From NCBI GenBank assembly GCA_014523485.1, contig JAATVK010000064.1:1-15767 (forward strand): 15,767 nt of DNA, in the 5' to 3' direction. This stretch comes from Nitrososphaerales archaeon TH5894. Its GTDB lineage: Archaea > Thermoproteota > Nitrososphaeria > Nitrososphaerales > Nitrososphaeraceae. The first letter of the stretch is position 1; the number at the start of each line of letters is the position of its first letter. Position numbers and translations under genes: made by a program. The notes under the pieces are model-generated. The model did not search any database, was not told the DNA's origin, and worked only from the letters and a program-made list of their open reading frames with translations. Shown piece by piece: positions 8,240 through 13,980 of the stretch.

Positions 8240-9607
8240 ATGCTAGGTGCAAAAAATAACTTTTTAACTTTTTTTTCTAATTTAAAGAGACCAGAAAAAA
8301 CAATATTTATTATCATAAATGTTTGTCTAATTATTGATGTTGCTCTGTGTACAAGTCCAGAATTTATTCCAGAACAAGTCAAATCATCTTTTAGTTTTGT
8401 TATATTTAATTTTATAACTATCGTTATAATAATAGGGCAAATTTACTTACAAAGATTTGCAGAAAAAGAAAACAAATTACTTTTATCAAAGTCCAAATAT
8501 TTGTACTACCTATCGAAAATAACTAAAATATGTTGTCTTCTTTTAACAGCAAATTTAATTTTTGTTACTGGTTCTATGATCATTTTTAATGAATACCTTA
8601 TAATAAACCTCTTGATTGCAAATAATATATCCTGTTTTGTTGGCTCATTCTTTTTAGGCTCACTTGGACTTAAATTCATTATATGGTTTTCAATTAAACG
8701 AGACTCTTATGTATTATTATTTTATGGTATGGGATTGATCTTTTTGTTTCTCTCTTTTTTTACCATATTTTTATCTGATAATTTTTTAATTAGTGCTAAA
8801 CCCCCCTCTATTAATGCTAATTTAGAAATAACTTATCCTGAAATTGAAAATAATATTTTTGACATTATTAATAATTCTTACATTTTTTTACGTACTGCTT
8901 CTTATATTATGATGCTTATAGGCACTTTTATATTATTATCTTACTATTCAAATAAAACTCAAAAGATTAAATTATTTTTTGCTCTTGTTATTGTTTTTAT
9001 TATATATTTTCTTTCATCTCTTGATGCTTTTGGAATTATGGAAATATCTATCTATGAAGAAGACCTATTTTTCTATTATATCTTTCAATCTCTTATCACA
9101 ACTGTAGGAGGAATTATTTTTGGATATTCATTTTTAAAAGTAGCAAGTAAATTGGAGGTAGATAATCCAATAAAAAAATTATTAGTTATTACTGGATTTG
9201 GATTTATTTTGATATATACTGTAAATCAAACAACCGTAATAGCTACAGCTTATCCTCCCTATGGCCTACCAGCTCTATCTTTTATAGTGATAACTGTATA
9301 TTTGTTATGCTTTGGAATTTATTCATCTGCTATTTCTCTCTCCAATACTATAGTTCTTAGAAATAAAATAAGATCATTAACACAAAATAATAGTAATTTA
9401 TTTAGTAGTATAGGTGAAGCCCAAGTTACCTCTCAACTACAAAAGGCTGTGAACGCTGTTAAAACAATAGTGGAGCAAGAAGAAGAGAAATTAAAAGAAA
9501 AGACAGGTATCGAAGTTAATTTCACTGAAGATAAAGTTCAGGATTATATGCAACAAGTTGTGGAAGAAATGCTTAAACATAAATCAGTTTCTAAAAAAAC
9601 ATCATAA
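8240..9607 (+). CDS. Polytopic membrane protein with cytoplasmic coiled-coil tail
   Basis: This 455-residue protein has about ten predicted membrane helices (roughly 21-39, 51-70, 95-116, 118-140, 157-179, 218-236, 245-264, 281-300, 313-331, 345-368). A charged cytoplasmic tail of about 85 residues follows, with likely helical or coiled-coil segments (395-423 and 430-447). The tail motif SSIGEAQ (389-395) and the KTGIEVNFTEDKVQDYM stretch (421-437) resemble a multi-copy membrane family that I associate with ammonia-oxidizing archaea and whose function is not established. That link is from memory and not checked. No transporter signature, kinase domain or catalytic motif is visible. A sensor or signal-transducing role is possible from the helical bundle plus coiled-coil design. 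The ATG is 13 bases after the small exported protein gene. Confidence 0.88.
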   Translation: MLGAKNNFLTFFSNLKRPEKTIFIIINVCLIIDVALCTSPEFIPEQVKSSFSFVIFNFITIVIIIGQIYLQRFAEKENKLLLSKSKYLYYLSKITKICCLLLTANLIFVTGSMIIFNEYLIINLLIANNISCFVGSFFLGSLGLKFIIWFSIKRDSYVLLFYGMGLIFLFLSFFTIFLSDNFLISAKPPSINANLEITYPEIENNIFDIINNSYIFLRTASYIMMLIGTFILLSYYSNKTQKIKLFFALVIVFIIYFLSSLDAFGIMEISIYEEDLFFYYIFQSLITTVGGIIFGYSFLKVASKLEVDNPIKKLLVITGFGFILIYTVNQTTVIATAYPPYGLPALSFIVITVYLLCFGIYSSAISLSNTIVLRNKIRSLTQNNSNLFSSIGEAQVTSQLQKAVNAVKTIVEQEEEKLKEKTGIEVNFTEDKVQDYMQQVVEEMLKHKSVSKKTS

Positions 9608-10640: not shown

Positions 10641-10664
10641 GGTAGAAGAAGAAGATTGATATAC

Positions 10665-11123
10665 TTGCAGGCAGAGGAAAACAATAATAAGGAAATAAAG
10701 TCTGAAGAAAATACTTCACGACCCAAAGAAACAACAACTGAAAAAAAGCCATCCTATAGGATTTTGTTTGTAGACGATAATAAGGATATTCTGTTAACCA
10801 TCAAAGAGGGATTGGAATATCATGGATTTATAGTTGATACATTTTCAAATCCTTTGGAAGCACTATCCTATTTTAAACCAGAATTATATGACTTAGTTTT
10901 AATTGATGTTAAAATGCCTCATATGAGTGGCTTTGAATTTTATCAAGAATTACGAAAAAAGGCAACTTATGGCACTGAAATAAAGTCCTGTTTTATTACA
11001 GCGTATGAAGTATATTTTGATACATTAAAGACCGAATTTCCAGAATTATATAGTGGATGTTTTATACACAAACCTATCAAAATAGAAGATTTGGTTAAGA
11101 AGCTAAATGAAGAATTAAAATAA
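10665..11123 (+). CDS. Stand-alone CheY-like response regulator receiver
   Basis: This is a single phosphoacceptor receiver domain with no output domain. A polar N-terminal tail rich in Glu, Lys and Thr of about 30 residues precedes the domain. Numbered from the upstream TTG at 10656, the receiver shows the acidic pair Asp40-Asp41 in ILFVDDNKD, the phosphorylated Asp84 in VLIDVKMP, the switch Thr115 in FITAYE and the conserved Lys139 in HKPI, so all catalytic residues are present. It would relay phosphate from an unlinked histidine kinase to a partner protein. No kinase is in the window. It converges on the ATPase-cyclase gene, 241 bases away. Both TTG starts are possible; no ATG fits. Confidence 0.92.
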   Translation: MQAEENNNKEIKSEENTSRPKETTTEKKPSYRILFVDDNKDILLTIKEGLEYHGFIVDTFSNPLEALSYFKPELYDLVLIDVKMPHMSGFEFYQELRKKATYGTEIKSCFITAYEVYFDTLKTEFPELYSGCFIHKPIKIEDLVKKLNEELK

Positions 11124-11364: not shown

Positions 11365-12867
11365 TTATACCTGTAAACATTTCATTTTTACTGGTATATT
11401 TTTATTTCCAAATTTATTTTCTTGATATACAGAATATAATTTAATTATTTGACCATGTTTAATCTGATAATCACCTATATAATGGATTATATCGTGGTAT
11501 TTATCATCCAATGTTAGCAAAGAGTGTGCTAACCCAGAATCAATTAAGATATGATTATCATCACCTACATCCATTACCCTTCTTGCAAAAATAATGCCAG
11601 GGCCCCAAATATTTTGATTGTTATTGGCATCATTAACTATAAAAACTGGACCAGATGCTATTCCAATTCTAACAGCTAGAGAAGATTCATCATCTTTTCC
11701 CATGTTATGTATTTTTAATTTAGTATGTAATTGTACACTCAAGTCTAGGGGTGCTTCAGGATTTGATGTAAATCCTATAGCCATTCCATCACCAGTAGGA
11801 AGGACCTTTTTATCTAAATTTTTTCTAAATATTTCACTAGATATTACAAAATTGTTTAAGAATTCTATTTTTTCTATTTGTTTTCGAACAGATAACCTAG
11901 GGCTTGAAAGTCCTACAATATCAATAAAGAAAAAATTTGCATTTATAACACTAGATGGACCCAGATCTGATATTCTAGTATTTCCATAGATTCCTATTAA
12001 TTTTTTATATAACTCTAAATGCTTTTGATGAAAAGCCATATCTAGGTAAAAGACAGGTTCCGTTTTTATTGGTGCTTTGCACACACTACAAATGAGAGAT
12101 GAAGAGCTAGGAAATGACAATAAAGAGTTTTTATCCAATTCAAATTTTATCCATGAAGGATATTTTGAACTAAATCCAGTTAATGATAAAAATTTCATTT
12201 TTCTAACTATTTCATCGTCTTTTTCATCTAATTTTATCTGTAAAACTCCATCAAAGAGGGGACGTATTTTATCTATTATAGACGGTTCAACAACTGTATC
12301 ATCTATCGTAAAAATTGAGAGTATATTATTATTTTTTAAGGAAAAAGACAAAGTATTAATAAATCGTAATACATCTTTTTCATCAAAAATATTGAAAAGG
12401 TGTGAAAGAGAATCTACAACCATGCATATTCTTTTTTGTGAGAGAGAAGGTGTCCTATTTTCTCCTTGTTCATTATTATGATTATTTTTTTGTTCTAGAT
12501 TTGAGGATAAAATAATTTTATCTATATCTTTTTTGATATCAGCTAGGTTATTAGAAAATACTGAATTGTTTGTTTCTAAAGAATTCATTTGTTCTCTCAG
12601 AAAAGGATTAATAAAAAAAGAATTAGATTCAAGGATAGAGGATACGCTATTAAATAAATTTTGATATTGTCTTTTAGTTAATGTTGAACTAACGAAAATA
12701 CCACTATTACCAATTTTCAAAATGGATTCGAAGAAAGTTTTACAATAAGTAGTTTTTCCAGATCTACCAGGCCCCATTATTAAGAAAAGAGTATTTTCAC
12801 CATTTTGATTTTCATGATAATCTTTTCCAAGTAATTCTTTATAACCTGGGATTGGCAATATTATCAT
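11365..12867 (-). CDS. RecA/KaiC-type ATPase fused to a class III nucleotidyl cyclase domain
   Basis: This 500-residue two-domain protein starts at ATG 12867. Residues 1-250 form a P-loop ATPase of the KaiC/RAD55/FlaH kind, with Walker A GPGRSGKTT (32-40) and Walker B ICMVVDSL (147-154, Asp152). A CSVC pair (260-263) with FHQKH (279-283) could form a C2H2 zinc site. Residues 310-485 form a class III adenylate/guanylate cyclase domain: FFFIDIVGLS (metal Asp316), VLPTGDGMAIGF (metal Asp360), VRIGIASGPV (399-408) and IWGPGIIFARRV (420-431, Arg430). Against mammalian adenylyl cyclase the adenine-selecting Lys is Leu356, the selecting Asp is Asn419 and the transition-state Asn is Ile426. It may use another nucleotide or act as a regulator or sensor. 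It diverges from the MinD-like gene upstream. No membrane segment is present. Confidence 0.93.
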   Translation of the reverse strand: MIILPIPGYKELLGKDYHENQNGENTLFLIMGPGRSGKTTYCKTFFESILKIGNSGIFVSSTLTKRQYQNLFNSVSSILESNSFFINPFLREQMNSLETNNSVFSNNLADIKKDIDKIILSSNLEQKNNHNNEQGENRTPSLSQKRICMVVDSLSHLFNIFDEKDVLRFINTLSFSLKNNNILSIFTIDDTVVEPSIIDKIRPLFDGVLQIKLDEKDDEIVRKMKFLSLTGFSSKYPSWIKFELDKNSLLSFPSSSSLICSVCKAPIKTEPVFYLDMAFHQKHLELYKKLIGIYGNTRISDLGPSSVINANFFFIDIVGLSSPRLSVRKQIEKIEFLNNFVISSEIFRKNLDKKVLPTGDGMAIGFTSNPEAPLDLSVQLHTKLKIHNMGKDDESSLAVRIGIASGPVFIVNDANNNQNIWGPGIIFARRVMDVGDDNHILIDSGLAHSLLTLDDKYHDIIHYIGDYQIKHGQIIKLYSVYQENKFGNKNIPVKMKCLQV

Positions 12868-13110
12868 AATTACATAAGATTTATTTAAAGGTAGAGATAA
12901 TTTTTCGAAGATCTTTACATTAAAATGGAAGTAGGTCGATCAATATTAATAATCTAATTTTGTGTCATTTAACCCTAGAGTATTTTTACAAAATGTATCA
13001 ATATTTTTGAAAACATCGCCGTTCACATGTCGCTAATTTTCAATGACTTAATTTTCTTTATGTTATATGAATAAAAAATATTCTTATTACACTTGTATTT
13101 AGTTAAAATA
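12868..13110. promoter_or_regulatory. Shared divergent promoter region (cyclase fusion / MinD-like gene)
   Basis: These 243 bases separate two divergently transcribed genes. On the plus side AAAAATATT near 13074-13082 is suitably placed for a start just before the ATG at 13111. On the minus side TTTAAATAA near 12881-12890 is too close to the ATG for a standard TATA position, so the minus promoter is unclear. No obvious operator palindrome is seen. Confidence 0.4.
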
Positions 13111-13980
13111 ATGAAAAAATGTGTTGCTTTTCATTCCTATAAAGGTGGAACAGGAAAATCTACAATTAGCTCTAATATTTCGGTTTTGCTAGTTAAAATG
13201 GGATACAATGTTCTTCTTATTGATATGGACGTTTATGCTCCAACCTTGCAAACTTATTTCAATCAAGAACCAAAGTATTGGATCAATAATTTTCTATTTA
13301 ATACAGCGGAATTTGAAAACGTTATTTACGATCTTACTCGTCTTATCAAAAATTTTCCCAATAAAAAAGAAACTCAAAATGAGTTAGGGAAATTTTTTGT
13401 GGCGTTCGCAAATTCTTCTAAGGAAGAAATAACAAAATTAGATGGAGCATTAGGACAGGATTCTTCAAAGCTAGAATTACTCCGTAAATTTATTCTAATG
13501 AAGGAGGAAATGGCTTACGAAAATGACATTGATTACATAATTATAGATACTAGTCCAGGAATACGGTATTGGTCCATAAATTCTCTAGCAATAGCAGATC
13601 TGATTATATTATCCCTAAAAATGGATAGCATTGACCTTGAAGGTACAAAAAAAATGGCCACTGAAATTTATTCAGCTTTTACAAAATTAGGGACCAAATC
13701 TCTTTTGCTGTTTAATAGAGCTGCTGGATATTGTCTTCCACCAAACTTAATTCAAGAAACATCCTATGCTCCAGAGGCAAATTATGCAAACATACTTTCT
13801 GAACAGTCAAAGGTTACAGATACTTTTAAAAAAGAAGTAGATATGGAAATAATTGGCAATATACCCTGTTATTGCGATATCCAATTTGATAGTAAAGAAT
13901 TTCTGACTGTATTGAAATACCCTTATCATCCATTTACTCATTTACTGCATGGTTTAGTAGAAAAGCTAGAAAATATATAG
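13111..13980 (+). CDS. MinD/ParA-like SIMIBI ATPase
   Basis: From ATG 13111 the protein has 289 residues. It starts MKKCVAFHSYKGGTGKST with the deviant Walker A (residues 11-18; signature Lys11 and catalytic Lys16) that defines the ParA/MinD/TadZ group. LLIDMDVYAPTL (35-46) is the switch I region with Asp38. YIIIDTSPG (142-150) is Walker B plus switch II. LLLFNRAAG (198-206) is the strand with the base-contacting Asn. Such ATPases dimerise on ATP and position or partition partners on DNA or membrane. The C-terminal FTHLLHGLVEKLENI could form a membrane-touching amphipathic helix, as in MinD (inference). A TTG at 13093 would add six residues; I prefer the ATG because of promoter spacing. No ParB- or MinE-like partner is adjacent. 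The divergent neighbour is the ATPase-cyclase fusion. Confidence 0.92.
   Translation: MKKCVAFHSYKGGTGKSTISSNISVLLVKMGYNVLLIDMDVYAPTLQTYFNQEPKYWINNFLFNTAEFENVIYDLTRLIKNFPNKKETQNELGKFFVAFANSSKEEITKLDGALGQDSSKLELLRKFILMKEEMAYENDIDYIIIDTSPGIRYWSINSLAIADLIILSLKMDSIDLEGTKKMATEIYSAFTKLGTKSLLLFNRAAGYCLPPNLIQETSYAPEANYANILSEQSKVTDTFKKEVDMEIIGNIPCYCDIQFDSKEFLTVLKYPYHPFTHLLHGLVEKLENI

Follow-up and report, generated by a model that had tools for sequence, protein, structure and literature searches.

KaiC-type ATPases have been described as signal transduction hubs of Archaea (Makarova, Galperin and Koonin, 2017, mBio; as reported in PMC5847659, PMC6393860 and PMC13286277). With regard to class III nucleotidyl cyclases, a 2021 paper devoted to two other archaea stated that, of the adenylate cyclases predicted in archaea, very few belonged to this class (PMC8646023). 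Ma1120, a class III adenylyl cyclase of Mycobacterium avium, carries Ala at the position of the transition-state Asn and is active, and its A164N mutant showed lowered activity (PMC4215837). Mutation of its Asp157 reduced ATP turnover 3-5 fold at pH 8 (6 fold for D157H; D157N was not among the mutants made), exchange of the base Lys for Glu resulted in a 92% loss of activity at pH 7.5, and the guanylate cyclase base code is given as Glu combined with Cys, Gly, Thr or His (PMC4215837). Finally, in the pyrimidine cyclase EaPycC, Arg142 and Gln144 are located four and two residues before the metal Asp146 (PMC11224242).

Here, we analyzed a 15,767-nucleotide stretch of DNA (hereafter the window) from a soil archaeon, in which a single minus-strand gene combines a KaiC/RAD55-type ATPase and a class III cyclase-homology domain (CHD) in one chain of 500 aa (Table 1). 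Our results suggest that this fusion is probably a conserved signaling switch.

Domain organization and fold

Both halves of the protein were supported by sequence and fold. The ATPase half matched PF06745 (35.7 bits versus a cut-off of 26.6) and contained Walker A and B motifs, and the CHD half matched PF00211 and adopted the fold of class III nucleotidyl cyclases; thus, the initial annotation, which had read a RecA-fold ATPase and a class III cyclase domain in a single chain, agreed with the profile matches and the predicted structure. No membrane part was present in the fusion chain. The full-length AlphaFold model had a pLDDT of 77.2 and a pTM of 0.49, the latter value meaning that the mutual placement of the two halves is unreliable. 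Because only KaiC-type chains were listed when the full-length model was searched with VIA-align, the CHD was folded and searched separately, which placed Ma1120 at rank 1 and Rv1900c at rank 10 in VIA-align and Rv1900c first in Foldseek.

Table 1. Features of the window and of related loci (residue counts refer to 110 full-length relatives for the ATPase half and to 238 relatives for the CHD)
Feature	Position	Strand	Remarks
Fusion of KaiC-type ATPase, predicted-zinc linker and CHD	11365..12867	-	500 aa + stop
KaiC/RAD55/ArlH-type RecA-fold ATPase domain	12118..12810	-	residues ~20-250
Walker A, GPGRSGKTT	12748..12774	-	residues 32-40; K38 110/110
Thr62-Leu63, aligned to the KaiC Glu pair	12679..12684	-	no Glu at 62/63 in 110 relatives
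Walker B Asp152	12412..12414	-	110/110
Predicted-zinc linker, C260-x2-C263...H280-x2-H283	11968..12102	-	residues ~256-300
Class III CHD	11383..11967	-	residues ~301-495
Asp316, first metal Asp	11920..11922	-	238/238
Leu356, at adenine-selecting Lys position	11800..11802	-	Leu 234/238
Asp360, second metal Asp	11788..11790	-	238/238
Asn419, at adenine-selecting Asp position	11611..11613	-	Asn 236/238, one gap
Ile426, at transition-state Asn position	11590..11592	-	Ile 199, Val 38, one gap (n=238)
Arg430, transition-state Arg	11578..11580	-	237/238, one gap
ParA/MinD-family ATPase (KGGTGKS)	13093..13980	+	ATG at 13111; AAA_31 E 6.5e-22; divergent neighbor
Stand-alone response-regulator receiver	10656..11123	+	PF00072 E 1.4e-19; also adjoins fusion in L060, L061
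Hydrophobic, probably multi-spanning membrane protein	8240..9607	+	7TMR-DISM_7TM E 0.004 (weak, below cut-off)
Small upstream CHDs (other loci)	L130:8840-9529, L132:8803-9519, L134:8825-9523, L136:8802-9521, L137:8807-9520		

Nucleotide-binding pocket of the cyclase domain

Profile alignment to Ma1120, with which the secondary structure agreed, placed Leu356 at Lys101, Asn419 at Asp157, Ile426 at Ala164 and Arg430 at Arg168 (residue names from PMC4215837). The assignments of the initial annotation, in which Leu356, Asn419 and Ile426 replace Lys, Asp and Asn while Asp316, Asp360 and Arg430 remain, were therefore reproduced, as was its view that the pattern is neither that of a standard adenylate nor that of a standard guanylate cyclase: Leu356 and Asn419 stand where adenylate cyclases have a base-selecting Lys and an Asp or Thr, and no Glu was found at position 356 in the 238 relatives. 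As to the transition-state Asn-Arg pair, which is usual though not universal, Arg430 is kept and Asn is replaced by Ile or Val. We know of no purine or pyrimidine code that fits a pocket with Leu356 and Asn419.

It had also been asked whether the three replacements are conserved together or represent a one-off mutation. Leu/Asn/(Ile or Val) occurred jointly at 356/419/426 in 233 of 238 relatives (the best-scoring proteins, a set that favors close relatives), which rules out a one-off mutation, and Leu356, Asn419, Ile426, Arg430, Asp316 and Asp360 were each present in 110/110 full-length relatives. A broader set of 48 CHDs combined the window protein and L012 with 46 CHDs retrieved from 398 genomes of the phylum, 34 of which gave a match, and included distant Nitrosopumilaceae forms; G374:C27, with four stops, was left out. 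In this set, position 356 was occupied by Leu (34), Ser (6), Asn (4), Phe (3) or Val (1), position 419 by Asn (34), Thr (5), Ala (5), Pro (2), Asp (1) or Ile (1), and position 426 by Ile (40), Val (6) or Thr (2), with both metal Asps and Arg430 retained in 48/48. A further census of 131 CHDs likewise spoke against a one-off mutation. It drew on two overlapping collections, so some genomes were counted twice (e.g., L063 and L014); ten fragments were classed separately, and the profile also caught one canonical-type CHD, a Lys/Asp/Ser/Lys row. As aligned, the charged base contacts are lost almost throughout the relatives, and the metal and Arg contacts are retained.

Analysis of three gene pairs revealed a dN/dS of 0.08-0.11 for the CHD versus 0.26-0.46 for the ATPase half. 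By this measure the CHD is under tighter constraint than the ATPase half, a point that the initial annotation had not raised. The whole-gene values (0.18-0.26, with dS near saturation in the L063 pair) ruled out a decaying gene.

With respect to function, the presence of Ile426 does not mean that the enzyme is inactive or unusual, because Ma1120 is active without the Asn. Thus, of the weight that the initial annotation had put on the replaced residues, the base-contact swap stood, and the idea that loss of the transition-state Asn is special did not, Ma1120 having Ala there (PMC4215837). The near-complete conservation of the metal Asps and Arg430 argues against a mere scaffold, and the retained Asp/Asp/Arg set together with the activity of Ma1120 lacking this Asn (PMC4215837) favors catalysis. 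On the other hand, Leu at the Lys position gives the base no side-chain hydrogen bond, which speaks against the cyclase reading. Taken by itself, the pocket pattern does not show that the product is different or that the domain is dead.

Mycobacterial cyclases with pairs other than Lys/Asp are also known, such as Rv1900c and Rv0386. The domain might be an adenylate or dual adenylate/guanylate cyclase that has an unorthodox pocket and an ordinary output, a sub-case of our preferred explanation whose probability overlaps with it and which we consider rather unlikely. The presence of Ma1120 and Rv1900c among the closest folds (VIA-align, Foldseek) and the loss of only 3-6 fold in Ma1120 D157 mutants (PMC4215837) are in its favor; however, the change from Lys to Leu also removes the other adenine contact, at which Glu was costly in Ma1120 (PMC4215837), and ten sibling CHDs of the Lys/Asp type may already serve ATP in this genome.

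Sibling cyclase domains in the same genome

The genome contained 12 PF00211 matches. In a joint alignment, ten of these CHDs had Lys at 356 and Asp at 419, the exceptions being the window protein and L012. Hence chance or misalignment is ruled out, as is the objection that canonical residues could lie elsewhere in the domain, since the siblings display Lys/Asp at the very same columns. The ten siblings (L001-L010) had Asn (7) or Ser (3) at position 426 and Lys in place of Arg at 430, L008 had Glu at the first metal position, and five were CHD-receiver fusions (PF00211 and PF00072 in 5/5).

A tree was built from 51 selected rows and rooted on the ten Lys/Asp siblings, which lay on one side of a branch with support of 100/99. 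The window protein fell in a group of 19 rows (100/99) together with the remaining KaiC fusions and two zinc-CHDs linked to ParA. L012 was on a very long branch and its placement is unsure.

ATPase half and linker

The ATPase half scored far below the NCBIfam equivalog cut-off for ArlH (31.9 versus 215 bits) and the cut-off for KaiC (20 versus 408 bits). It differed from KaiC clock proteins in having a single ATPase domain instead of two and Thr62/Leu63 at the catalytic Glu pair, a placement obtained by profile alignment to KaiC chains up to that point followed by ungapped extension by eye. Because this Glu pair is absent, the ATPase half is likely to be a slow or non-hydrolyzing switch, which would bind ATP with weak or no hydrolysis; Glu163, present in 110/110 relatives, could be an alternative base.

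Between the two halves, C260, C263, H280 and H283 were each conserved in 110/110 close relatives. Among 38 loci matched by a linker profile, 36 had C-x2-C followed by HxxH, HxxC or DxxxC, the exceptions being L077, which is cut by the contig start, and L094. The profile missed the fusion locus L099, but the DxxxC form is seen in the aligned sequence of its twin, L017. Such exchange of Cys, His and Asp ligands is what a zinc site would show, and a bound zinc is predicted here. Neither this invariant Cys/His linker nor the missing Glu pair, nor the ParA partner gene considered below, had been noticed in the initial annotation.

Architectures and distribution

A scan of genome contigs, in which 80 of 117 loci were kept, provided the basis for the architecture counts and for the neighbor counts on named contigs. 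Four architectures were distinguished: KaiC-zinc-CHD (36), CHD plus C-terminal region (24, of which three were cut short), N-extended CHD plus C-terminal region (17) and zinc-CHD without KaiC (3). The C-terminal region (~200 residues), examined in L019, L029, L047 and L054, had no Pfam match.

Within 41 genomes of the family, the fusion profile matched 34 at E 1e-40, and 40 places in 32 genomes extended into the ATPase half. An ortholog is encoded in each of the single-contig genomes G354, G390 and G417. PF00211 domains were detected in 40 of the 41 Nitrososphaeraceae genomes, with up to 20 in one genome. Among the best 120 of 1420 and of 253 protein matches, the few rows that named an organism were Nitrososphaerota groups, and 78 of the 80 loci were titled as such, the remaining two being 'Archaeon MnTg01' and a TM6 bacterium (L087). 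The contig filed under the TM6 bacterium bears a fusion locus of the ordinary archaeal kind, ParA included, and was probably binned in error. CHDs that carry a comparable Asn...Gly-Ile-Asn motif are known in bacteria. A tblastn search with the CHD found no relative in plasmids and phages, and a peptide-pattern search found none in viral contigs, which is weak evidence against a mobile origin. In addition, the open frame at L053:3-1952 encoded both a CHD of the same subfamily and a SAM-dependent methyltransferase domain, and two CHD genes were present in three loci: in tandem (L139:6952-9888), ~5 kb apart (L124) and on opposite strands (L086).

In 5 of the 17 N-extended loci among the 80 kept, a separate Lys/Asp/Asn/Lys CHD was located 172-206 bases upstream on the same strand (Table 1); PF00211 was found in three of the four examined (L132, L134 and L137, not L130). 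The upstream canonical CHD and the altered-pocket CHD are a possible heterodimer pair in this subfamily. Extended to the window protein, the idea would be that it pairs with another cellular CHD, each providing residues that its partner lacks, and complementary sets do coexist in one genome (Lys/Asp and Lys at 430 in the siblings, Arg430 in the window protein). We nevertheless regard such a heterodimer as improbable: no such CHD neighbor was seen for the KaiC fusions, since the members of this cluster that lie near fusion loci (6 of 36) are all receivers, and both kinds of CHD have both metal residues (Glu at the first in L008), so that neither is an obvious half-site.

Gene neighborhood

ParA homologs were located within 5 kb of 30 of the 40 fusion places, 25 of them upstream on the same strand. 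The ten fusion places without ParA in this range argue against a ParA-linked switch; two of them start near the contig start (G419:C11 and G405:C222), all seven places of genera g164 and g168 lack it, and the genome of another (G283:C12) has a further fusion place with ParA. None of six CHD-only places had ParA within 5 kb. On named contigs, where neighbors may be hidden by short contigs and all counts are lower bounds, ParA lay within 7 kb of at least 26 of the 36 fusion loci and two of the three zinc-CHD loci, compared with 1 of 24 loci with CHD plus C-terminal region and 0 of 17 N-extended loci. ParA and zinc-CHD pairs without the KaiC part were present in L078 and L086, and in L078 the ParA frame stops three bases before the zinc-CHD frame. 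Because L078 pairs ParA with a zinc-CHD in a locus where no KaiC part was found, the ParA pairing appears to be independent of the KaiC part.

Other neighbors were less frequent, with receiver genes near at least 7 and homologs of the membrane-protein family near at least 8 of the 36 fusion loci. A small conserved protein of ~90-107 aa (cluster 8) was observed in L060, L071, L073, L077, L078, L086, L091 and L098, and it was present at all three zinc-CHD loci without KaiC. In the window, the ~1 kb between 9608 and 10655 lacked ORFs above 45 aa as well as Rfam matches and tRNAs, and no RNA elements or tRNAs were detected in the whole window at the thresholds of the tools.

Cyclic nucleotide receptors

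PF00027 (cNMP_binding) was found in none of six genomes of the genus (69-98% complete), in 21 of 41 genomes of the family and in 10 of 14 control genomes. Because it was not found in any of the six genus genomes, a cyclic nucleotide product would lack its usual receptor in this genus. This lowers the odds of the usual cAMP receptor there, and other receptors are possible.

This result, as well as the joint conservation of a neutral pocket (L356, N419, I/V426) and the frequent pairing with a second ATPase gene, would also fit the main rival of our explanation, in which the CHD is a catalytically silent nucleotide sensor whose metal-NTP occupancy regulates the KaiC half or the ParA partner. This is possible, if on the unlikely side, considering that both metal Asps and Arg430 are kept almost universally, probably beyond what nucleotide binding would need, and that Asn is dispensable for catalysis in Ma1120 (PMC4215837).

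A pyrimidine cyclase of a Pycsar-like anti-phage system is very improbable. A distant cousin with a divergent CHD (L054:674-2014) had a weak PycC match (E 0.0085), and clade D PycC requires a zinc site for activity (PMC11224242). However, the window protein had no PADLOC PycC match at E 0.1 (HMMER filters can drop weak matches) and showed a weak mads_8 match in the ATPase half (E 0.00039); EaPycC has Arg142 and Gln144 where the window protein has L356 and T358 (PMC11224242); the cNMP-binding effector expected of Pycsar was not found, with 0 PF00027 matches in the window's own genome (87.5% complete); and no relative turned up in the collections of phage, plasmid and viral sequences that were searched. 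Thus, membership in Pycsar fails on model, residues and receptor.

Discussion

The domains, residue conservation, linker pattern, gene linkage and constraint were all computed in this work, and on this basis a mechanism may be proposed. In soil ammonia-oxidizing archaea, the fusion would act as a signaling switch without a membrane part in the chain. Its KaiC/ArlH-like domain would bind ATP and, like its relatives, probably oligomerize on ATP, and the linker, presumably pinned by zinc, would relay the state of the ATPase to the CHD. The CHD may dimerize and bind a metal-NTP through Asp316, Asp360 and Arg430, and would most likely cyclize it with relaxed or altered base choice, because Leu356 and Asn419 replace charged pocket residues. 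The adjoining ParA-type ATPase is a likely partner, which could be either the input or the target. We regard the chances as evenly balanced that the fusion is a switch linked to ATP and ParA, with a CHD that binds a metal-NTP and probably cyclizes it, the base choice being left undefined by the pocket. A bolder form of this switch, which seems unlikely, is an archaeal cyclase subfamily with a signal outside the cAMP and cGMP codes, an unknown receptor, gating by a KaiC-type ATP switch and coupling to a ParA-type ATPase, possibly timing or placing a cell process.

The occurrence of class III CHDs in 40 of 41 family genomes contrasts with the rarity stated in the 2021 paper on two other archaea (PMC8646023). 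This subfamily, in which the pocket has changed in one consistent way and which is linked to a KaiC switch and a gene for ParA, offers an entry to nucleotide signaling in ammonia-oxidizing archaea and a natural test of class III cyclases without the usual base contacts. In the literature searched, which did not extend to the 2017 KaiC survey itself, no description of a KaiC-CHD fusion was found. Each half is of a known kind, and what appears new, although it may already be in print, is their combination with a pocket fixed in a non-canonical state, a linker resembling a zinc site and ParA as partner.

In comparison with known systems, PycC of Pycsar is of class III type as here, and its clade D has a zinc site essential for activity (PMC11224242). 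That site is C-terminal, whereas the predicted one precedes the CHD in the fusion; the specificity residues also differ, and no receptor partner was found here. Ma1120 (PDB 4WP8 and 5D0E) is the nearest solved cyclase by profile, with Lys101/Asp157 in place of Leu/Asn and without a KaiC part. To our knowledge, it has no zinc linker. The archaeal KaiC hubs reported in 2017 use KaiC-type ATPases as signaling modules, as proposed here, and KaiC-receiver fusions are mentioned among them (PMC5847659, PMC6393860 and PMC13286277). Finally, compared with the KaiC/ArlH (FlaH)/RAD55 RecA-like ATPases, the window protein has one ATPase domain fused to a CHD and Thr-Leu at the KaiC Glu pair.
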